Shown here: positions 5,301-45,468 of the stretch, piece after piece
Layout of the letters: the number at the start of each line of letters is the position of its first letter
How positions within the stretch are numbered: position 1 is the first letter of the stretch
NCBI RefSeq assembly: GCF_005885605.1
Contig: NZ_SZVP01000002.1
Location: 124,001 to 188,000 of the forward strand
Direction of reading: 5' to 3'
Length of the DNA stretch: 64,000 nt
From: Colwellia ponticola
GTDB taxonomy: Bacteria > Pseudomonadota > Gammaproteobacteria > Enterobacterales > Alteromonadaceae
Notes under the pieces: model-generated
What the model was told of the DNA's origin: nothing
Databases searched by the model: none
The model's input: the letters and a program-made list of their open reading frames with translations, nothing else
Translations under genes and position numbers: made by a program

Positions 5301-5352
5301 TATCAACAACACTTAATTATTACTATGATTGTAGATTCGCGTTAAGAATCCT

Positions 5353-5383
5353 AATAACCCACTTTATTGTGGGTTATTTTTTT
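5353..5383 (+). terminator. Intrinsic terminator after rppH
   Basis: AATAACCCAC (5353-5362) pairs perfectly with GTGGGTTATT (5369-5378) around a 6-nt loop, followed by TTTTT. This is a standard Rho-independent terminator and should cut rppH off from ptsP. Confidence 0.9.
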
Positions 5384-5402
5384 AGAAATTTATTTTTAGC
5401 TA

Positions 5403-5667
5403 ATACCAATTCTATTAAATTTATTCCCAACTCAGAGCTGTATTAGCGAGCTTAGAACAAGCAAAATTGGTTAAGTATAGTTAGTCTATATTTCATCAAT
5501 TTTGTGCGGTTATCAGTTTGCTAATAAGCTCCCAAGGGCCAGTTTAAAAAGGCTTATAGCCGGCGTTATTGATTTTGACAAGGGAATAACCATTCTCTGC
5601 AATCAATGCCTTGCCTCTAAGCCTTTTAATTCTGGCTGAGTGGGAAATAACTTAATAGACTTGGTAT
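5403..5667. mobile_element. MITE-like element with about 33-bp terminal inverted repeats
   Basis: The left end (5403-5435, beginning ATACCAATTCTATTAA and ending CTCAG) matches the reverse complement of the right end (5636-5667, beginning CTGAG and ending TTGGTAT) at all but a few positions plus one indel. The 265-bp body has no coding capacity and contains nested palindromes: AAAATTG/CAATTTT, and AAAAGGCTTA/TAAGCCTTTT. It fills most of the rppH-ptsP gap (5301-5691). A non-autonomous element mobilised in trans is the best reading. I see no clear target duplication beyond a possible TA. Confidence 0.7.
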
Positions 5668-5691
5668 AAGTATCAATTGCCGAGGAATTTA

Positions 5692-8043
5692 ATGTTAACT
5701 ACCTTGCGTCGAATAGTATTAGAGTTTAGCCAAGAAGCTGAGCTGCAAAATGCGCTTGAACGTATGGTATACAATGTTAAAAAAGCAATTAACACTGATT
5801 GCTGTACTATTTATCTAGCTGATTATCATCAACAAAATTTTATTTTAATGGCCTCAGATGGTTTGGCTAAAAACGCCCAAGGACAAACCCGAGTAAGTTT
5901 TTCTCAAGGTTTAGTTGGCTTAGTAGCCCAGCGAGAAGAGCCGTTAAATATTGCCAATGCCCAACAACACCAAGACTTTGTTCACGCCCCTGAAGTTGAA
6001 GAAGAGGCCTATAATGCTTTTCTAGGTACCCCTATTATTCATCAACGCAAAGTACTCGGTGTGTTAGCGATTCAACAAAAAAAATCACGTCACTTTACCG
6101 CAAATGATGAGGCCTTTTTGGTGACACTGGCTACCCAATTAGCGGGTGCTTTAGCTAATGCAGAAATTAAACGTTTGCTGCGCCAGCAGCAAGACAATAA
6201 GCAAAGCGTTAAGCAATTATATGGTATTGCTGGCTCGCCGGGTATTGCTTTAAGTGAAATTTTCGTGTGTCAACCGCAAGCAGACTTTACTGGCGTACCA
6301 TTAAAAAAATCGGTTGATATCGACCAGCAGGTATTAATTTTTGAGCGAGCTGTGCACAAAACTCGAGCTGAATTTACTAGTCTAAGTCGTCAATTAAATG
6401 AGTCAATTGATGATGACAGTTTAATTATTTTTGATGTCTATCAACAGTTATTAGATCAGGCCAATTTAGGGCGAGAAATAACTGAAAAAATAGTACTTGG
6501 CTGGCGTGCAGACAGCGCCTTAAAATTAGTCATTGAACATTATATTAGTCAATTTGAAGCAATAGAAGACAGTTATTTATGTGAACGTTCCAGTGATATT
6601 AGAGATTTAGGCATACGTTTATTAGCCAACTTACAGCAACAAACTAAACAAGAACAACAATTACCTCATGCGTTTATTTTACTTGCGCAAGATGTTAGTG
6701 CCTCAATGGTTGCACAATATCAACATCAGGGGCTGTTAGGGGTAATTTCGTTATCAGGATCCAATAATTCTCACGCCGCTATTTTAGCGCGTTCATTAGG
6801 TTTGCCCGCTATTATGGGCGTTAATGCGGTAGTACTGAGTCAGTTACATCAGCAACAGGCCATCATTGATGGCTATAGCGGTGAATTATTTATTAATCCA
6901 AACGACAGTTTAATAGCACAATATCAACATTTATTAAGTCAAGAAAAAGCGCTGACCGATAAGGTAATGAAAGTGGCACATCTCCCCTGTATGACTAGAG
7001 ATGGCAAAACAATAGAAGTATTACTTAATGCAGGGTTATCAGCAGGATTTGAACACTCGGCTAAATTAGGCGCGTTAGGTATTGGCTTATATCGCACTGA
7101 AATACCTTTTATGAATCGTAGTTGTTTTCCTTCAGAGCAAGAGCAAACAAAACTGTATCGTAAAGTATTACAGGCCTTTCCTGAACACGGTGTTACTATG
7201 CGTACCTTGGATGTTGGCGGCGATAAATCACTACCTTATTTTCCCATCAGTGAAGAAAACCCTTTTCTTGGTTGGCGTGGTATTAGAATTACCTTAGATC
7301 ACCCCGACATATTTTTGGTACAAGTGCGTGCTATGCTCAGGGCGAATCAAGATATCAATAACTTAGAAATTATATTGCCTATGATCTCGGGTGTTGAGGA
7401 AGTTGATGAAGCGATTAGCTTAATTAATCAGGCTTTTTTTGAGTTAAAAACAGAGTTAGTTACCGATATTAACGCTCAACTGATGTCAAAAAATAGCAGT
7501 AACGATGAGTTAACTTTTCAACAAGCACAGCGAAAAGCGCAAAAAACTGCCGCGGGCTTAGTAAGACCTAAAATAGGTATTATGCTAGAAGTACCAGCGG
7601 TTATTTTTCAAATGGAAGCCTTAGCTAAACGCGTCGATTTTTTCTCTGTTGGTAGTAATGATTTAACGCAGTACTTATTAGCCGTTGATCGAAATAATAG
7701 TCAGGTGGCTACTTTATATGACGCTTTTCATCCCGCGGTCTTAAAAGCCTTATATAGTATTGCACAACAATCTGCTCAACATGGTAGAGCTATTAGCTTA
7801 TGTGGTGAGCTTGCTGCACAACCCGCAGGCGCTATTTTATTATTAGCCATGGGCTTTGATAAAATTAGTATGAACGGTCATAACGTACCTCGCATAAAGT
7901 GGGTTATTCGTCATATTACCTTGGCACAAGCACACACTATGTTAGATAAAACATTAACGTTGACAACGCCAAAGCAAGTACATAGTTACCTTAATGAACA
8001 GCTTGAATTATTAGGGCTAGGCAGCTTTATTCGCGCGGGATAA
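5692..8043 (+). CDS. ptsP: Phosphoenolpyruvate-protein phosphotransferase PtsP (enzyme I-Ntr)
   Basis: PtsP is the first phosphotransferase of the nitrogen PTS: it takes phosphate from PEP and hands it to NPr, and so to EIIA-Ntr. I use ATG 5692, with GAGGA at 5682-5686 in front and an N-terminus (MLTTLRRIVLEF) that aligns with the family. The upstream TTG 5677 is rejected. The 783 residues hold a GAF domain (about 17-160), the swivelling domain with phospho-His361 in NNSHAAILARS, and the PEP-binding barrel with Cys704 in LCGELAAQP. An insertion of roughly 30-40 residues, rich in Gln/Lys/Asn, lies at about 584-625 of the barrel and makes the protein longer than the 748-residue E. coli form. 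The start lies 24 bp past the inverted-repeat element. Confidence 0.95.
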   Translation: MLTTLRRIVLEFSQEAELQNALERMVYNVKKAINTDCCTIYLADYHQQNFILMASDGLAKNAQGQTRVSFSQGLVGLVAQREEPLNIANAQQHQDFVHAPEVEEEAYNAFLGTPIIHQRKVLGVLAIQQKKSRHFTANDEAFLVTLATQLAGALANAEIKRLLRQQQDNKQSVKQLYGIAGSPGIALSEIFVCQPQADFTGVPLKKSVDIDQQVLIFERAVHKTRAEFTSLSRQLNESIDDDSLIIFDVYQQLLDQANLGREITEKIVLGWRADSALKLVIEHYISQFEAIEDSYLCERSSDIRDLGIRLLANLQQQTKQEQQLPHAFILLAQDVSASMVAQYQHQGLLGVISLSGSNNSHAAILARSLGLPAIMGVNAVVLSQLHQQQAIIDGYSGELFINPNDSLIAQYQHLLSQEKALTDKVMKVAHLPCMTRDGKTIEVLLNAGLSAGFEHSAKLGALGIGLYRTEIPFMNRSCFPSEQEQTKLYRKVLQAFPEHGVTMRTLDVGGDKSLPYFPISEENPFLGWRGIRITLDHPDIFLVQVRAMLRANQDINNLEIILPMISGVEEVDEAISLINQAFFELKTELVTDINAQLMSKNSSNDELTFQQAQRKAQKTAAGLVRPKIGIMLEVPAVIFQMEALAKRVDFFSVGSNDLTQYLLAVDRNNSQVATLYDAFHPAVLKALYSIAQQSAQHGRAISLCGELAAQPAGAILLLAMGFDKISMNGHNVPRIKWVIRHITLAQAHTMLDKTLTLTTPKQVHSYLNEQLELLGLGSFIRAG

Positions 8044-8135
8044 TGGCTGATACCAAGCAGACTAATTTATTGGCTCGTTTAGCGAGACAATAATTTTACT
8101 TACACCATTTAGGAGCGGGTTTTCCGCAAAGTAAC

Positions 8136-8930
8136 ATGATTACAACGGTATTAATCTCTTGTCTCATTTTAGGTGGTATTGTCGGTTTTTTAGCCGGCTT
8201 ACTCGGTATTGGTGGCGGCCTTATCATAGTACCCGCATTAGTGTATTTACTGCCGATGGTAGGGGTCGATCATGAGGTGGTGATGCCTATGGCGTTGGGT
8301 ACTTCTTTAGGGGCAATCGTTATTACCTCGACTAGTGCCGCTTTTGCTCATCATCGTAATAGTAATATTCCTTGGCTGTTAGCACGCAAGCTAATGAGCT
8401 TAGTTGCGCTTGGCGCGTTAATAGGCGCTTTTATTGCCGATTCTCTTTCTAGAGAAGCCTTAACGGGCTTATTCTCCTTTGTCGTTATTTTATTAGCGGC
8501 TTATATGTTGCTTTCTATTAATTTATCAAAAGAAAGAACCGTTCCTCCCACCTATATTTTACAAACACTTAGTTTTATCACTGGCATTATCTCAAGTTTA
8601 ATGGGCATTGCTGGTGGTGCTATTTTAGTGCCATCATTAAGTTTCTTTGGTGTGCCAGTGCTACATACCATAGGTATTGCTACCGCTTGTGGGGTAATGG
8701 TTGCGCTATTTGGCTCGCTTGGTTACATTATCACGGGTATCGGAACAGCGAATCTTCCTCAGTGGAGTCTAGGTTACCTTTACTTACCTGCTTTATTGGC
8801 TATTGTGGTAAGTTCGTCGATATTTGCCCCGCTAGGCGTTAAATTTGCCAGTAAATTACCGATAAGAACCTTAAAAAAATGCTTTGCTTTTTTTCTTATC
8901 GCTGTAGCAATCAAAATGGTGCTTGGTTAA
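8136..8930 (+). CDS. TauE/SafE-family (DUF81) membrane permease
   Basis: The 264-residue protein is nearly all hydrophobic, with about eight predicted membrane helices in two pseudo-repeats. Each half begins with a glycine-rich motif: GFLAGLLGIGGGLIIVP near residue 20 and GIISSLMGIAGGAILVPS near 155. These are the hallmark of the sulfite exporter TauE/SafE family, which moves small organic or inorganic sulfur anions. The substrate is not determined by sequence. It sits between ptsP and lgt, where E. coli has no such gene. AGGAG occurs too far upstream of the ATG to be a good ribosome binding site, so translation may be weak. Confidence 0.85.
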   Translation: MITTVLISCLILGGIVGFLAGLLGIGGGLIIVPALVYLLPMVGVDHEVVMPMALGTSLGAIVITSTSAAFAHHRNSNIPWLLARKLMSLVALGALIGAFIADSLSREALTGLFSFVVILLAAYMLLSINLSKERTVPPTYILQTLSFITGIISSLMGIAGGAILVPSLSFFGVPVLHTIGIATACGVMVALFGSLGYIITGIGTANLPQWSLGYLYLPALLAIVVSSSIFAPLGVKFASKLPIRTLKKCFAFFLIAVAIKMVLG

Positions 8931-20234: not shown

Positions 20235-21809
20235 TTACACCTGATTGAGCCTTGATAACACTGGTAATATACAATTAACTTTATCAAAAGTTTCTTGATA
20301 TTCACTCAGTGCGGTTGAATCGGCAACTAAGCCACCTCCTGCCCAACAATGAATAGTGTTGCCAGTCTCAATATCAGTACTAGCACAAGTATTAGGTATA
20401 CTACTGGTTGATGGTGTATTAGGTTGACAAATTAAGGTACGAATGGTGATGCTAGTATCCATAGCGCCACAATTAGAAATATAACCAATAGAGCCGCAAT
20501 AGATACTGCGACGATGTGGCTCTAATTGTTCGATTATTTCCATGGCGCGAATTTTAGGAGCACCAGTAATTGAGCCACCAGGAAATGCGCCGCGCAGTAA
20601 ATCAGTAGCATGCTTATTATTTGCTAATACCCCTTCAACGGTACTGACTAAGTGATGCACCGCCGGAAAGCTTTCAATATCAAATAACTTAGGTACTTTT
20701 ACCGAACCCGGTTGACAGCTTTTACTAAGGTCATTACGCAGTAAATCTACAATCATTAAGTTTTCAGCATTATCTTTAGTTGAATGCTTTAATATTTCAG
20801 CATTATTAGCATCTTGTATTTTGTTATCACTACGGGGCATAGTGCCTTTAATTGGTTTACTTTGTACTTTACCTTGCGACAACTGTATAAAACGCTCAGG
20901 TGAAAGGCTTAAGATAGCACCATGTTCTAAACGTATAAAAGCAGAAAAAGGCGCCTTGTTGGCCGTTTTTAAGGCTAAGTAAGCGTTAAATTCATCGCCT
21001 TGATATTGTGCACTAAAGCGTTGCGCCAAGTTAATTTGATAACAATCGCCACTTAATAAATAGTTTTGCACAGTATTAAATTTCTCTATGTAGCTGGCTT
21101 TGTCCATGTTTGCTTGCCAAGTACTGGTTAATATAAACGTACTTGAAGCATCGCGGGTAACGCTTGCTGAAATTGTTGCCTTAGTCAGTGACGTTTCAAA
21201 CTGCTCTCGTTCGCTGTCCGCACACACTAAGTAAAAACTCGCTGACCTATTATCGAAAATAACGGCTTTGTTATAGAGACCAATAGCCATTTCAGGCAAG
21301 TTAATATCTTGTTTTGCTATGCTAGGTAGTTGTTCAAATCGACGACCTAAATCATAAGAGAAATAGCCGAGTGCGCCGCCCAAGAAGGGTAGGAAGTCAT
21401 GACTTTTTTGTGCGGTATTAAATAATTTTTCTTGCAGATTTTTAACCAGTGATAAGGGATCATCGTTACTGCTAAGGTTGACTTTTTTTGTATCCTTAGT
21501 GGCTAAAAAGCAGAGCTTAGTAACATTTTGTTGTGTTGTTAGCGTTGCTATAGGTTGCCATACTAAAATATCAAAACGGCTGTCAACATGGTCACTATTA
21601 CCAGAGTCCAGCCACATTGCCCAAGGTTGATCAGACAAAGTACTAAACACTGATTCTGGCGTAGCCGCATTGTTAAGTTGCAATGCTTTTGCGGATAAGT
21701 TGCTATCAAGCTCCATGGTGTTAATCACCGCGTTTATTGCTCCGTTAAGCTTTTCGTTAGCAGCAGTGTTATCGGTATGATTAGCAGCGTTATCAGATGA
21801 ATGGTACAA
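20235..21809 (-). CDS. pabB: Aminodeoxychorismate synthase component I
   Basis: PabB joins chorismate and ammonia (from PabA) to give 4-amino-4-deoxychorismate for folate. The C-terminal chorismate-binding half is intact, with SPERFIQL, KPIKGTMPR, ENLMIVDLLRNDL, FPGGSITGAPK and ETFDKVNCI. The N-terminal half includes PWAMWLDSG and the Asp-rich segment that aligns with E. coli PabB. The 5' end is uncertain: the longest frame starts at TTG 21809, but the 30 or so extra residues are Asn/Ala-rich and unlike the family, so ATG 21716 is a good alternative and would give about 493 residues. It is divergent from the fumarase gene. Confidence 0.92.
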   Translation of the reverse strand: MYHSSDNAANHTDNTAANEKLNGAINAVINTMELDSNLSAKALQLNNAATPESVFSTLSDQPWAMWLDSGNSDHVDSRFDILVWQPIATLTTQQNVTKLCFLATKDTKKVNLSSNDDPLSLVKNLQEKLFNTAQKSHDFLPFLGGALGYFSYDLGRRFEQLPSIAKQDINLPEMAIGLYNKAVIFDNRSASFYLVCADSEREQFETSLTKATISASVTRDASSTFILTSTWQANMDKASYIEKFNTVQNYLLSGDCYQINLAQRFSAQYQGDEFNAYLALKTANKAPFSAFIRLEHGAILSLSPERFIQLSQGKVQSKPIKGTMPRSDNKIQDANNAEILKHSTKDNAENLMIVDLLRNDLSKSCQPGSVKVPKLFDIESFPAVHHLVSTVEGVLANNKHATDLLRGAFPGGSITGAPKIRAMEIIEQLEPHRRSIYCGSIGYISNCGAMDTSITIRTLICQPNTPSTSSIPNTCASTDIETGNTIHCWAGGGLVADSTALSEYQETFDKVNCILPVLSRLNQV

Positions 21810-28633: not shown

Positions 28634-28707
28634 AGCGCTCTCATTTAATTAATGAAACTGATGATAGTATTGTCATTTTGACGAGAATATCCATAGAAGA
28701 GCAAACT

Positions 28708-29367
28708 ATGTTAAAGCATGAAATTATTCCGGTAACACTTTTTGAGCAAAACTGTACCTTATTTTGGTGCAGTGAGACTAAACAGGCTGCAGTGGTTGAC
28801 CCAGGTGGAGATATAGAAAAAATCATCGCTGCGATTAGCAAACACGGGTTAACACTTAATAAGATTTTAATTACGCATGCTCATATTGATCATGCCGGCG
28901 CAACGTCAGCGCTTGCCAATCACTATGATGTTTTGATTGAAGGGCCTCACAAGGCTGATCAGTTCTGGATTGATGGTATGGAAGATCAAAAGCAACGCTT
29001 TGGTGGCGCTTTTGCTTATGCAAAAAAATTCGTACCAAATCGATTTTTAGCGCAAGGTGATACCGTAAATTTTGGCAATATAATCATGGAAGTCTATTTT
29101 TGTCCTGGTCATACGCCAGGTCATGTGGTGTTTTTTCACCGAGAATCAAAAATTGCCCAAGTAGGTGATGTATTATTTAGTGGCTCAATAGGTCGTACTG
29201 ATTTTCCTCGCGGAGATCATGCCACGCTTATTAGCTCTATTCGCCACAATTTATTCCCTTTAGGTGATGATGTCCGCTTTATTCCAGGTCATGGCCCTAT
29301 GAGCACTTTTGGGCAAGAGCGCCAATACAATCCTCATGTCAGTGACGTTGCCGTAGGCTTAAAATAA
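28708..29367 (+). CDS. MBL-fold metallo-hydrolase (YcbL / glyoxalase II-like)
   Basis: The start is ATG 28708, giving MLKHEIIPVTLFEQNC, which is the usual YcbL beginning. A TTG 30 bp upstream in the same frame lacks support. The 219-residue protein has the metal-binding THAHIDH motif (His57, His59, Asp61, His62), PGHTPGH, GDVLF and a final PGHGP. Family members hydrolyse thioesters such as S-lactoylglutathione, but the natural substrate of this branch is unsettled. Its TAA overlaps the ATG of the channel gene by one base, so the two are translationally coupled. Confidence 0.88.
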   Translation: MLKHEIIPVTLFEQNCTLFWCSETKQAAVVDPGGDIEKIIAAISKHGLTLNKILITHAHIDHAGATSALANHYDVLIEGPHKADQFWIDGMEDQKQRFGGAFAYAKKFVPNRFLAQGDTVNFGNIIMEVYFCPGHTPGHVVFFHRESKIAQVGDVLFSGSIGRTDFPRGDHATLISSIRHNLFPLGDDVRFIPGHGPMSTFGQERQYNPHVSDVAVGLK

Positions 29368-39066: not shown

Positions 39067-40509
39067 TTATGGTGTATAAGTACCGACACCTAAATCGTCA
39101 AGGTTACTTGGCGTTGCTGTGTGGTGATTATTCGCTAAAATATCCGCAGGTGAGTGTGCAATACGCAAGCCCATATCTTTTTCTTGTCTAACTAATTCGC
39201 CACGTAACGAGTTAGCAACAACATCAGTAATTTTAATATCAACAAATTGGCCAATAACGCTATGCGGGGCAACAAAGTTAACCGTGCGGTTATTTTCTGT
39301 TTTACCACGTAATTCCATCGGGTTCTTTCTTGAAGGACCCTCTACCAAAACACGTTGCTCGGTATTTAGCATTTGTCTTGCAATACGTAATGCTTGGTGT
39401 GTTATTTGGTCTTGTAATAGCTTTAATCTATCTTTTTTCACTTGATCGTCAATATCATCAGGTAAATCTGCTGCCGGTGTACCAGGGCGAGCGCTATAGA
39501 TAAAACTAAAACTTAAGTCAAAATCTATTGCTTTAATTAGATTCATGGTATCGGCAAAATCTTCATCAGTTTCACCAGGGAAGCCAATAATAAAATCAGA
39601 AGACATGGATAAATCAGGACGTACTTTTTTTAATCGACGTACTTGAGATTTATATTCAAGGGCAGTATGACCACGTTTCATTTGCGTTAAAATACGGTCA
39701 CAGCCACTTTGTACAGGCAGATGTAAATGGTTAACTAACTCAGGTACATCCGCATAAGCTTCTATAATATCGTCAGTAAACTCAACAGGGTGTGAAGTGG
39801 TATAACGAATTCTGTCAATACCGTCAATGGTGGCAACTAAACGTACTAAGTCAGCAAAACGACAAATACTACCATCATGTGTTTCACCACGATAAGCATT
39901 GACATTTTGGCCAAGTAGATTGACTTCACGAACACCTTGCTCGGCAAGTTGTGCTATTTCATACAGTACATCATCAAGTGGGCGACTGACTTCTTCGCCG
40001 CGCGTATAAGGTACAACACAAAAAGTACAATATTTACTACAGCCTTCCATAATAGAAACAAAAGCGCTAGCGCCATCTGCTTTAGGCTCTGGTAAGCGGT
40101 CAAACTTTTCAATTTCAGGGAAGCTTACATCCACAATCGGATTTTTTGAGTGCTGTAACTGATTTAACATTTCTGGTAAACGATGTAATGTTTGTGGACC
40201 AAAAATCATATCAACAAAAGGCGCACGCTTGCGAATAGAGTCGCCTTCTTGAGAGGCAACACAACCACCAACGCCAATAAGTAACGCTGGGTTTTTATCT
40301 TTTAGATTTTTCCAGCGACCTAACTGATGAAATACTTTTTCTTGTGCTTTTTCACGAATAGAGCAAGTATTAAGCAAAATAACGTCAGCTTGTTCCGCTT
40401 CTTCAACTAAGGAGAAACCATGAGTTGAGTCCAACAATTCTGCCATCTTTTGCGAGTCATACTCGTTCATCTGACAGCCCCAAGTTTTGATATATAGCTT
40501 TTTACTCAT
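39067..40509 (-). CDS. miaB: tRNA-2-methylthio-N6-dimethylallyladenosine synthase MiaB
   Basis: MiaB is a radical-SAM enzyme that adds the methylthio group to i6A37 of tRNAs reading UNN codons. I choose ATG 40509, giving [19 protein letters not shown]; a GTG 15 bp upstream is possible but unlike the family. The auxiliary-cluster cysteines are 12, 49 and 83, and the SAM-cluster cysteines are 157, 161 and 164 (CSKYCTFC), identical in position to E. coli. A TRAM domain ends the protein (about 375-440), followed by a variable tail. It leads the miaB-ybeZ-ybeY-corC-lnt group. Confidence 0.96.
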
Positions 40510-40889
40510 TACTTCACTCTTCACAGGCGATTTGATTATATACCAGAAAAACCTAAGTAATTCTCGTATAGATAAAGGAGGCGTATTTTATACCAATTGC
40601 TTACCAATTTCGAATGATAAAAGTAAGTCTATTAAGATATTTACTACTCCTTGGTAAATTTAAGGCACATTAACAGAGCATTTACTGAAAAATAAGGTTT
40701 ATTGGTCATGTCATGAAGAGAAGCTATAGGACATTAGATTTCTTGATGCTTATCGATAAAAAAATGACATTACCTTGATATTAAATAAGGTTTTTGTTTG
40801 TATTTGTATGTTAACCTCGAGCAGCTGCACTTGCTTTTCACATTTTCACATTTTCACATTGTTACTCTATCATCAGGATGTTGATTGTT
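40510..40889. other. Intergenic region between miaB and the NIT-GGDEF-EAL gene
   Basis: This 380-bp divergent gap holds the promoters of both genes. The only clear structure is the octanucleotide repeat at its downstream end (listed separately). A stretch at 40590-40660 begins with ATACCAATTG, like the end of the inverted-repeat element near ptsP, but no matching second end was found. Confidence 0.4.
40835..40858 (+). repeat. TTTTCACA tandem repeat (three units)
   Basis: Three perfect copies of TTTTCACA lie at 40835-40842, 40843-40850 and 40851-40858, followed by TT. They end 31 bp before the likely start codon, in the position of a promoter or leader. Changes in copy number would alter spacing. 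Confidence 0.85.
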
Positions 40890-43800
40890 ATGTTAAAAAA
40901 GCTTAAAAGTAAGTTAACTATTCGAACGCGCTTAATAACATTACTGTTACTACCTTGGTTCATTATATTTTCTTTGGGTATTAATGATACGGGTGATTAT
41001 TTACGTGATATTGAACAAGCGCATCAAGCGAGCTTGTCTATTGCTATTGCCAGTGATATTGACGATTTAATTTATGAACTACAAAAAGAGCGTGGTTTAT
41101 CGGCAAAAAAAATTGTTAGCACTAACCAAGAAAATAGCTTGAAAGAGCAAAGAGCAAAGACGGATGCACACATAGAGCACTATGTAACATTAACCGAAAA
41201 AATAAAGTTAAAAGAAGTAAATGTTACCAGTATTACTCGTGATGTTGTTATTAATAAAATACTAACCAATGGCTTAGCTAGTGTTGCAGTACTAGCACAG
41301 CAGCGCAAAAAAATTGATGAATGTATTATTAATGCTTGCAAGAGTGATGCAGGCTTCACTTATTATTCTCAATTTATTCAACAACTCTTACGCTTAGTAT
41401 CACAAGTACTAATACAGCCTCATAATATTGAACAACATCGTAATGGTGTCGACTTTCTTACCTTACCTTACTTTACTTACAAGAAAAATCAGAACAAGAA
41501 CGCAGTGCTTTAACTCGCTTATTATATGCTAATCAAATAGATGTAATTGAACTTAAAAAAGTTATTTTTCATGGAGAGGAACAAGAAAAGCTTATCGATG
41601 ATTTACTTTCGGTATCAAAGTTGTCTAATCAGGTTTTGTTACAAGGGCAACTTGATACCGATAATAATCAGCAAGTCTTAGCGATAAGAAAGTTACTTAC
41701 CCAAAAGTTAATTCGTGCTGAGCAACTTGCGCAATTAGAGCGTGAAATAGGTTACGGTGGTCTGATACATTACTTTAAAAAGTATACCTTACGAGGTGAA
41801 GCAACTGATCGACAAACTTTTATCAACAGCTTGACTATTACTCAAGATTATATCGCCCTCTTAACGAACAGTAGTCATTTTACTCCAGAGGATAAACAAG
41901 CGCTGGCGACTATTAAAGACTATTTTACTCGCTACTATCAATACATGTTACTAACAGATTCTTTAAAAAATGAAGGTAAAAATATTGAACAAATAGATAG
42001 CGAATATCATATTGATGATAGACAAGCTATTGATGCCATTAAACAGCTACAACGTAATGAACTTGAGATAGACGCAGATTATTGGTTGGAGTTATCTTCA
42101 CAGCGTATTGATAAATTTAAAGCACTCGGTCACCACATTCGCACTGATATACAAGCCCTAGCCCAGACTAAAGAGCAGCAAGCCATTGAAAGCTTAAGAC
42201 TATTTTTGGCTATATTCTTACTACTTTTTATATTTACCGTTTATTTCTCATTCTTATCGGTTCAGCGTTTTATTAAGGAGCTGAGACATATTCGTGATGG
42301 TATGAAACAAATGCAACTAAAACGTAATTTTAATCAACCTTTAATGGTACAAGGTAATAATGAAATAACTGATATGGTGATTGCTTTTAATCATATACTG
42401 GCTGAGATAAACCAATCTGAAGAAGACCAAAAAATTTCAGCGGCTGTTTTTCATCATGCTTCAGAAGCGATCATGATTACCAATGCCAATAATGAAATTG
42501 AAACAGTCAACCCAGCGTTTTGTCGTATTAGTGGTTATAGCGCAGCAGACGTTATTGGTAAAAACCCTAACATATTGAGTTCGGGTAAACATGGACGTAG
42601 CTTTTATAAAAAAATGTGGCAGGATCTGGAGCAAAAAAATTGCTGGCAGGGTGAAGTCTGGAATAAAAGAAAAAATGGCGAATTATTTCCGGAGTTTTTA
42701 GCGATTTCGGTGGTCAGAGATAAAAGTAGAAAACCACTACAATACATTAGCTTATTTTCAGATATAACTAAGTATAAAAAATATGAAGAAGATATTTGGA
42801 TACAAGCTAACTATGACTCTCTTACGGGGTTGCCTAATCGTGATTTTTTCTTAGATAAATTACGTAAAGAATTGACCATCATTAAAGAGAATAAAAAAAA
42901 TGATGTGGTCTTACTTTTCATTGACCTAGACCGCTTTAAATATGTTAATGATACCTGGGGGCATACCAGCGGTGATAAATTATTAAAATTAGCAGCAAAG
43001 CGGCTAAAAATGTGTGTTCGTGAGAAAGATACTGTAGCGCGTTTGGGGGGAGATGAGTTTGTGGTTTTATTGGAGGGTGTCCTTAACCGCAAAGTGATTG
43101 AAGGTCTGGTTCATAATATGCTAACGACATTGTCTATGCCGTTTCACTTAGGTAGCAAAAACGAAGCGGTGCTATCTGCGAGTATTGGTATTACCGTCGC
43201 CTCTGAAGATGGAGATAATGCTGATTTATTATTTAAAAATGCTGACACCGCGATGTATCAAGCAAAGACACTTGGGCGTAACACCTATCAATTTTTTACT
43301 AAAGAGATGAATGAAACGGTAAGTCGGCGTATGTATATCGAACAAGCATTAAGACAAGCCATTAAACAACAAGAATTTGTTTTACATTATCAGCCAGTGG
43401 TTTCACTCAGTAATGGTGAAATTATTGGTGTTGAAGCACTGATACGTTGGCAACATCCTAATAAAGGATTAATTTATCCAGATAACTTTATCACTATTGC
43501 CGAAGAAACAGGATTAATTGAACAGATTGGTCAGTGGGTGATAGAGCAAGCTTGTGCTGATTTAAATCACTGGCAGTCGCTTGGCTTAATGCTTCATGTT
43601 GCTGTCAATGTCTCTAGCCGACAGTGTAAACAAACGAGTCAAACGCCACTCAAAGAAGTCATCAGTAACGCATTGCTCAAGCATAATATTGCGCCATCGA
43701 ACTTTAAAGTCGAAATTACAGAAAGCTTATTGATGGATAACTCTCAAGAAATGATCACCACGCTGCAAGAAATAAGAAGTTTAGGTGTCGCTATCCATAT

Positions 43801-44122
43801 GGATGATTTCGGTACTGGTTATTCATCACTGAGTTACTTAAAACATTTTCCTATTAATGTATTGAAAATAGATCGCTCTTTTATTCAAGGTGCCATTGAC
43901 GATAAAACCGATGCGAGTTTAGTTGAAGCGGTTGTGTTAATAGGGCATAGCTTATCGTTAAAGCTTGTTGGTGAGGGGATCGAAACACAAGAGCATTATA
44001 ATTACTTACGCGAGTTAGGGTGTGACTATGGCCAAGGCTATTTTATTTCTAAACCGATAATTGCGACTGAATTAATTACCCTGTGTCAAGAAGTAGGCGA
44101 TTCACCTAAATGGATAGCTTAA
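40890..44122 (+). pseudogene. NIT-HAMP-PAS-GGDEF-EAL c-di-GMP protein, interrupted by a frameshift at a CTTAC repeat
   Basis: Start is ATG 40890 (AGGA at 40875-40878); ATG 40878 is an alternative. The first frame encodes a membrane helix and the beginning of a nitrate/nitrite-sensing (NIT) domain (ELQKERGLSAKKIV), then fails just after 41471 and stops at 41513. The rest continues uninterrupted in another frame: remaining NIT part (LQEKSEQERSALTRL), second helix (about 42200-42260), HAMP, PAS (about 42430-42780), GGDEF at 43046-43060 with an RxxD site (REKD), EAL at 43433-43441, and DDFGTGYSS from 43802. All catalytic motifs are intact. Removing one 5-bp CTTAC unit rejoins the frames. The second part has no credible start of its own, so in the present state no enzyme should be made. 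Confidence 0.88.
41457..41476 (+). repeat. CTTAC pentanucleotide repeat at the frameshift
   Basis: Three perfect CTTAC units (41457-41471) are followed by TTTAC (41472-41476) and TTAC. The upstream frame is intact through the repeat and the downstream frame is correct right after it. Deleting one unit gives a continuous reading FLTLLYLQEKSEQER. Confidence 0.9.
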
Positions 44123-44232: not shown

Positions 44233-45468
44233 ATGGAACATTTTGATTGTGTTGTTATTGGTGGTGGTATGGTGGGCGCAACCAGTGCGCTGACTTTAGC
44301 ACAGCTTGGTTTACAGGTGGCTCTAGTTGAAAAACATCCCCCCGCTGAGTTTAGGGCTGAGCAACCATTAGATTTACGTGTATCGGCAATCTCTTTAGCT
44401 TCACAGAACTTATTAAAACAAGTGGGGGCTTGGCAGCAGGTTGAGCAATGGCGCGCTTGTCCTTATAAACGCTTAGGTGTTTGGGAGCATGACAGTGCTT
44501 ATACTGAATTTAATGCCCAGGATATTGAGCAAGCTCATTTAGGGCACATTGTAGAGAACCGTTTAATCCAACTGGCGTTATGGCAGCAAGTTAATGCTAT
44601 GACTAATATCCGTACATTTTGTCCTGAAAGTTTACTCTCTTTAGAGCAAAACGATAATAGCACTTGTGCGGCGTACGATGGTGCAATTAATCCTAATGCT
44701 AAAGTCACGTTAACATTAACGAACACCCGTTTAACGGCAAAACTTGTTATTGGCGCTGATGGCGCGAAATCTAAAGTAAGATCAATGTCAGCCATTGGTA
44801 TGACCGGTTGGGATTATCAGCAATCTGCGATGCTCATTAATGTTGAAACATCGCTGCCCCAGCAAGATATTACCTGGCAGCAGTTTTTCCCTACCGGTCC
44901 TGTGGCTTTTTTACCACTCCCTGGACAGAGTCAGTTAGGTGGTTATGCCTCGTTAGTCTGGTATCATCAGCGCGATGAAATCACTCGCCTCGCCGCGTTA
45001 TCCAATAACCAATTACAACATGAAGTATTGAAAAAATTTCCTAACCGCTTAGGGAATATCAAGGTATTGGCTAAAGCAAAGTTTTCGTTAACACGCAGGC
45101 ATGCTAATCGTTATCAACATAAGCAAGTATTGTTGTTAGGTGACGCCGCGCATACTATTAATCCAATGGCAGGGCAGGGAGTCAACTTAGGTTTTAAAGA
45201 TGTGTTAGCTTTACAGCATGTTATTGCCGAGGCAATAGGTAATGGCGAAGTGTGGTATAACGAAAAAGTATTAGCGCGCTATGAAAAAGCAAGGCGTAAC
45301 GAAAACTTACTAATGATGTCTACCATGGATGCATTATATGCGGGTTTTAGTCACCGGTCACCACTGGTTAAAGCGGCGCGTAATATAGCCTTGCTAGCGG
45401 TTAATAAAGTCCCTTTTGTTAATAGTACCATCAAGAATAAAGCACTGGCGTATGCTTGCGGTATATAG
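44233..45468 (+). CDS. ubiF: FAD-dependent ubiquinone-biosynthesis hydroxylase, UbiF type
   Basis: This flavin monooxygenase acts late in ubiquinone synthesis (ring C6 hydroxylation of the demethoxy intermediate). The 411-residue protein has the N-terminal FAD motif VVIGGGMVGATSALTLAQLG, the VIGADGAKSKVR segment, and the second FAD motif LLGDAAHTINPMAGQGVNLG. Details such as LRVSAISLAS, CPYKRLGVWE and LTRRHA follow E. coli UbiF more closely than UbiH or UbiI. In E. coli ubiF lies next to miaB; here the frameshifted c-di-GMP gene is placed between them. Confidence 0.88.
   Translation: MEHFDCVVIGGGMVGATSALTLAQLGLQVALVEKHPPAEFRAEQPLDLRVSAISLASQNLLKQVGAWQQVEQWRACPYKRLGVWEHDSAYTEFNAQDIEQAHLGHIVENRLIQLALWQQVNAMTNIRTFCPESLLSLEQNDNSTCAAYDGAINPNAKVTLTLTNTRLTAKLVIGADGAKSKVRSMSAIGMTGWDYQQSAMLINVETSLPQQDITWQQFFPTGPVAFLPLPGQSQLGGYASLVWYHQRDEITRLAALSNNQLQHEVLKKFPNRLGNIKVLAKAKFSLTRRHANRYQHKQVLLLGDAAHTINPMAGQGVNLGFKDVLALQHVIAEAIGNGEVWYNEKVLARYEKARRNENLLMMSTMDALYAGFSHRSPLVKAARNIALLAVNKVPFVNSTIKNKALAYACGI

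Follow-up and report, generated by a model that had tools for sequence, protein, structure and literature searches.

At a putative c-di-GMP locus in Colwellia ponticola, the reading frame of a signalling gene changes at a short pentanucleotide repeat, and the question is whether that repeat turns the gene on and off or whether the gene has simply begun to be lost. The stretch of DNA analysed here (64 kb; "the window") is part of contig C109 of a draft genome (3.72 Mb in 238 contigs), and its relevant features are listed in Table 1.

Table 1. Features in and around the interrupted c-di-GMP gene, in window coordinates.
Feature	Position	Strand	Basis or remark
Left neighbour, presumed miaB-like gene	39067..40524	-	Same left neighbour in relatives
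Approximate zone of the putatively missing divergent pair	40643..40862	.	Spacer matches to relatives on either side
TTTTCACA x3.25, perfect octamer array, just upstream of the gene	40835..40860	+	Repeat scan; promoter consensus match
Upstream frame, N-terminal membrane/NIT part, stopped early	40890..41513	+	~207 residues from ATG 40890; ATG 40878 also possible
CTTAC x3, perfect (CTTACCTTACCTTAC)	41457..41471	+	5 nt longer than 11/11 aligned orthologs
Downstream frame: HAMP (below cut-off), PAS, GGDEF, EAL	41471..44122	+	No stop in 883 codons
Right neighbour, presumed FAD protein gene	44233..45468	+	Same right neighbour in relatives

The break site

A first-pass annotation of this DNA had placed the frame change of a NIT-(HAMP)-PAS-GGDEF-EAL gene at three perfect CTTAC units, and had noted that one unit fewer restores the frame. 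Both observations are borne out by an alignment over the break of 11 orthologous sequences, ten of which are open frames (1,076–1,117 residues, stop to stop), the eleventh being the copy in genome G062, which is broken elsewhere. At the array the window copy carries an extra 5 nt relative to all 11, and the array itself is found at the break position in none of them. Two conserved motifs flanking the break are 26 residues apart in 9/10 open orthologs (the spacing pattern is unmatched in the tenth, that of G036), and they are likewise 26 residues apart in the window copy once the extra 5 nt are discounted. Because the 5 nt are absent from all 11 orthologs and the spacing agrees without them, the window lineage appears to have gained one 5-bp unit; by this comparison, the lesion is a 5-bp tandem duplication. 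CTTACx3 is the only perfect three-unit pentamer in the window and occurs once in the whole genome, although its TRF score is weak (34, degenerate tail included).

The two reading frames and their domains

The upstream frame, whose start at ATG 40890 was picked by its position relative to relatives, terminates at TAA 41511–41513 and contains a NIT match covering profile positions 1–106 of 239 (Pfam, E 8.2e-13). The downstream frame is open from 41444, following a stop at 41441, and runs to its own stop at 44120–44122. PAS, GGDEF and EAL all exceed the Pfam cut-off in this downstream piece, and HAMP lies under it (19.1 vs 25 bits); in the relative G029 HAMP exceeds the cut-off, and the intact G029 protein has the same domain order. 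HAMP apart, the domains of a NIT-HAMP-PAS-GGDEF-EAL enzyme are therefore found at Pfam cut-offs across the two pieces. The downstream frame is stop-free and keeps the motifs that we take to be catalytic, and the duplication is the one lesion seen in the window copy. The closest named matches to the gene come from Colwellia sp. 75C3, Colwellia sp. 12G3 and an uncultured Colwellia MAG. There are 39 GGDEF matches in the genome, none of which has a stop within the domain.

Age of the break and constraint

The break is young, since 883 downstream codons contain no stop. From the stops alone, neutral divergence since the break is bounded at less than 0.0235 substitutions per site (95% bound), and the bound is lower if indels are counted. 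In the downstream and upstream pieces the amino-acid rate on the window branch is 2.99 and 2.47 times that on the 75C3 branch, respectively, a modest excess over the 2.06 of 20 rows of neighbourhood controls, 2/20 of which exceed the gene's ratio; one control row (20256–21428) is a mispairing, with 34% identity to one relative, and is retained in the mean. The HAMP segment alone gives a branch ratio of 10.3 on just 76 residues and is not relied upon. At columns invariant in the other ten open copies the window copy is altered in 47/421 cases, the highest value of 11 (the next being 37/411). We take these substitution patterns to be those of a fast lineage, perhaps with some relaxation.

The gene in relatives

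Strong matches to the NIT piece (E<=1e-25) are found in 11 of the 39 genus genomes, nine of them open and two broken, the latter being the window genome (G000) and G062. Of the open copies used here, seven come from relatives that have the gene at the same slot, and the other three from the genomes G024, G036 and M071. A search with the mid-portion of the gene gives matches in 24 of 395 family genomes at E<=1e-10, many of them weak; these many weak family-wide matches are probably other genes, and among the family-wide matches listed none has an internal stop. In the G062 copy (L063, G062:C39, about 5347–8490) the frame changes twice within NIT, and 26 residues are missing in frame from GGDEF; this genome is metagenome-assembled, and faulty assembly could account for such lesions.

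In eight relatives (G007, G010, G025, G029, G031, G032, G061 and G062) the gene sits between a divergent ~160-aa gene and the counterpart of the window's right neighbour, presumably a ubiquinone-hydroxylase-like FAD protein gene, with 3,489–3,603 bp from the ~160-aa gene to the right neighbour, start to start. Beyond the ~160-aa gene, relatives encode a ~965-aa protein with propeller and Y_Y_Y matches, and this propeller gene is present in 28 of the 39 genus genomes (E<=1e-30). In G007 it is spread over two contigs, the longer part having two stops. Copies with one internal stop each are located at G034:C1:330969-333866, G035:C29:7287-10190 and G021:C48:10785-13760, and the propeller neighbour may thus be decaying elsewhere too.

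The window's own genome has neither gene of this divergent pair by the searches made: the propeller gene was not found at E<=1e-30 nor at E<=1, and the ~160-aa partner was not found in the whole genome at E<=1, with the same queries matching relatives in both cases. A relaxed search at 40401–40900 for a relic of the pair gave nothing above chance. The window spacer matches the relatives' spacer between the left neighbour, which we take to be miaB-like, and the propeller gene up to 40642–40695 (scores of 209–243 vs shuffle maxima of 37–45). Its right part matches the relatives' spacer before the c-di-GMP gene weakly (52–77 vs 44–49, some coding sequence included), the matches beginning at 40759 for G029, 40765 for G062 and 40862 for G010, with a gappy match from 40585 for G061. 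The simplest reading of these spacer matches is that the divergent pair was deleted in the window lineage.

Twenty other genomes carry the propeller gene, and its flank was examined in 18 of them (all except G021 and G030). In 17/18 the right neighbour lies 171–753 bp from the ~160-aa gene, start to start, and the flank in G027 is uninformative, as the contig ends there. No match to the c-di-GMP gene is found at the flank (E<=1e-4) in 15/18 genomes, and some of these fifteen gene-less genomes may never have had the gene. Relics with stops lie at the same slot in two genomes: in G005 (L145, G005:C43, 3208–3436) there is the C-terminal end in three frames, and in G015 (L142, G015:C11, 4939–5244) a NIT part together with a weak C-terminal piece (E 7e-4). 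A tree of the right neighbour (one gene, unrooted, 26 taxa) clusters the window with G029, G062, G010 and G005 with support of 0.79; in those five taxa three copies are broken or relics, each by different lesions, and two are open.

Short arrays in the promoter region and along the contig

The TTTTCACA array just upstream of the gene includes, in its middle copy, a -35-like TTCACA 17 nt before TATCAT, with 10/12 consensus matches. This putative promoter is a consensus match only, in a region with 8 promoter-like sites vs 5.6 expected, and the array was not seen in the relatives' upstream sequences compared. The chance of two of the nine contig arrays starting within 622 bp of each other is 0.10, and the pairing of the CTTAC and TTTTCACA arrays is therefore not taken as evidence.

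A scan of 410 kb of the same contig, with three copies as its minimum, gives 3 perfect pentamer triples vs a mean of 0.7 in ten order-3 Markov simulations, and 3 hexamer and 3 octamer arrays of at least three copies, of which the simulations gave none. A pentamer triple per se is uncommon yet unremarkable; its position at the frame change is what matters. One of the other two pentamer triples lies within an unbroken 555-residue frame; the second overlaps a frame start, the frame having an EAL-like end.

Three arrays on the contig but outside the window are noted for their settings. TTAACx3 (G000:C109:288527-288541) belongs to a near-palindrome where a minus-strand frame with an EAL-like end begins, TTGTTA x6.3 (G000:C109:82491-82528) reads as poly-Asn within a minus-strand frame of 846 residues and also lies just beyond where another frame ends, and TATTGG x5.2 (G000:C109:233836-233866) lies between frames.

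Alternative explanations

The frame change could be spurious, through an error in the assembly or the consensus or through a minority variant entering the latter, with the real gene intact. The number of contigs in this draft genome and the undamaged remainder of the gene are compatible with such an error, but a 5-nt insertion is atypical as a short-read error. Searching the window with open frames taken from 100 kb of G032 and 95 kb of G010 gave matches for 26/97 and 24/89 of them, respectively, and no second frame break relative to these two relatives was found among about 20 neighbouring genes. This result, and the lack of internal stops in the genome's GGDEF matches, make a general assembly problem unlikely, and we regard an artefact at the array as unlikely too. 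Alternatively, both frames might be used, through ribosomal frameshifting, transcript slippage or re-initiation, yielding a full-length or C-terminal product. The second frame is still open, and some internal starts from 42206 onward have a 4-base ribosome-site-like match upstream. The 73-nt overlap of the frames, however, contains no X_XXY_YYZ heptamer and no A/T run exceeding 5, the first internal start (TTG 41621, 107 nt beyond the stop) lacks a ribosome-site match of at least 4 bases, and the ten open orthologs require no such event. A convincing signal for programmed frameshifting, transcript slippage or re-initiation is lacking in the overlap and at the nearby starts, and dual use of the frames strikes us as very unlikely.

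The first-pass annotation had described the gene as "switched" out of frame. A switch would be simple-sequence phase variation in which CTTAC units are gained and lost by slippage and the c-di-GMP enzyme is toggled. A perfect tandem array does lie within the gene at the frame change, where its unit count sets the frame, the frame downstream is undamaged, and the gene has a second short array in its promoter region; inversion-based (site-specific) and epigenetic phase variation of c-di-GMP phosphodiesterases is also known, according to a 2025 review (PMC11868660). There are only three units, however, the array is kept in none of the 11 orthologs, the pairing of the two arrays has the chance probability given above, and locus loss is seen in the surroundings. 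From that annotation we therefore retain a tandem 5-bp duplication of recent date and set aside the switch; phase variation of the simple-sequence kind is very unlikely here. A more elaborate form, a young, low-rate contingency switch in which the coding array and the TTTTCACA promoter array, both lineage-born, would jointly alter frame and promoter spacing, we find highly improbable. The frame-break search against the two relatives gave a single other split match in the window, residues 3–57 of a G010 frame at 28665–28829, which overlies a gene on the opposite strand and is taken to be an over-long start.

Comparison with known systems

The criterion for phase variation in the 2025 review is bidirectional switching without selection, and siaD (7C) and mga (8C/7C) are given there as cases of a short tract in which mutations arise with no evidence that a switch has evolved (PMC11868660). 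By analogy, the CTTAC array fits this caution on short tracts: as with siaD and mga, a short tract mutates, the gene would be off and an evolved switch is unevidenced, although those two have mononucleotide tracts and belong to studied species (PMC11868660). The opa genes of Neisseria resemble the locus in having a pentamer array in the coding sequence that determines the reading frame, but they form a gene family whose repeats occupy the signal-sequence region and change in copy number (PMC13183285), whereas here there are three units in a single gene and no array in the orthologs. The Clostridioides difficile genes pdcB and pdcC are c-di-GMP genes with on and off states; these depend on invertible promoters and not on repeat length (PMC11868660). 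A Pseudomonas aeruginosa study speculates that changes in tract length and in c-di-GMP act jointly, the tracts being homopolymers (PMC8115180). Among the literature titles and abstract openings listed, we found no c-di-GMP gene with phase variation driven by repeats or slippage and no paper on this Colwellia locus.

Frameshift pseudogenes of c-di-GMP genes provide another parallel. In Thermosynechococcus, tll1859 is likewise one GGDEF/EAL gene among several and is hit by a single frameshift (PMC9090330). That frameshift is spontaneous, removes much of EAL and alters phototaxis, and was isolated and tested in the laboratory (PMC9090330), whereas here a tandem duplication of 5 bp precedes every catalytic domain and has a predicted effect.

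Gene loss as the preferred reading

The absence of the array from all aligned orthologs, the broken and relic copies in relatives and the missing neighbours make up a pattern of gene loss. The frame is disrupted relative to open orthologs, and the gene is broken in G062 and reduced to relics in G005 and G015, with seven slot relatives open, as would be expected of a frameshift pseudogene. We consider it quite probable that the gene is an early pseudogene of a dispensable regulator at a decaying locus, arising via one slip duplication rather than as a switch. Slipped-strand duplication of one 5-bp unit, in a leucine-rich stretch that seemingly already had about two units, would have put the gene for a membrane-bound c-di-GMP enzyme out of frame. 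Its product would be a NIT fragment of ~207 residues without PAS, GGDEF or EAL, and the enzyme would be off. The gene would be dispensable in this part of Colwellia, in a genome with many other GGDEF matches, and the locus appears to be eroding, its divergent partners presumably already lost here, and the gene itself having decayed in other species through what look like unrelated lesions. We infer a loss of function, with no selection for it, by plain mutation and not by a switch.

Were the switch real, an environmental bacterium of the cold sea would have a c-di-GMP enzyme whose phase variation is driven by a repeat. On the preferred reading, the locus would serve as an example of ordinary gene loss, a single genus presenting open, freshly frameshifted, multiply broken, relic and absent states at one slot.
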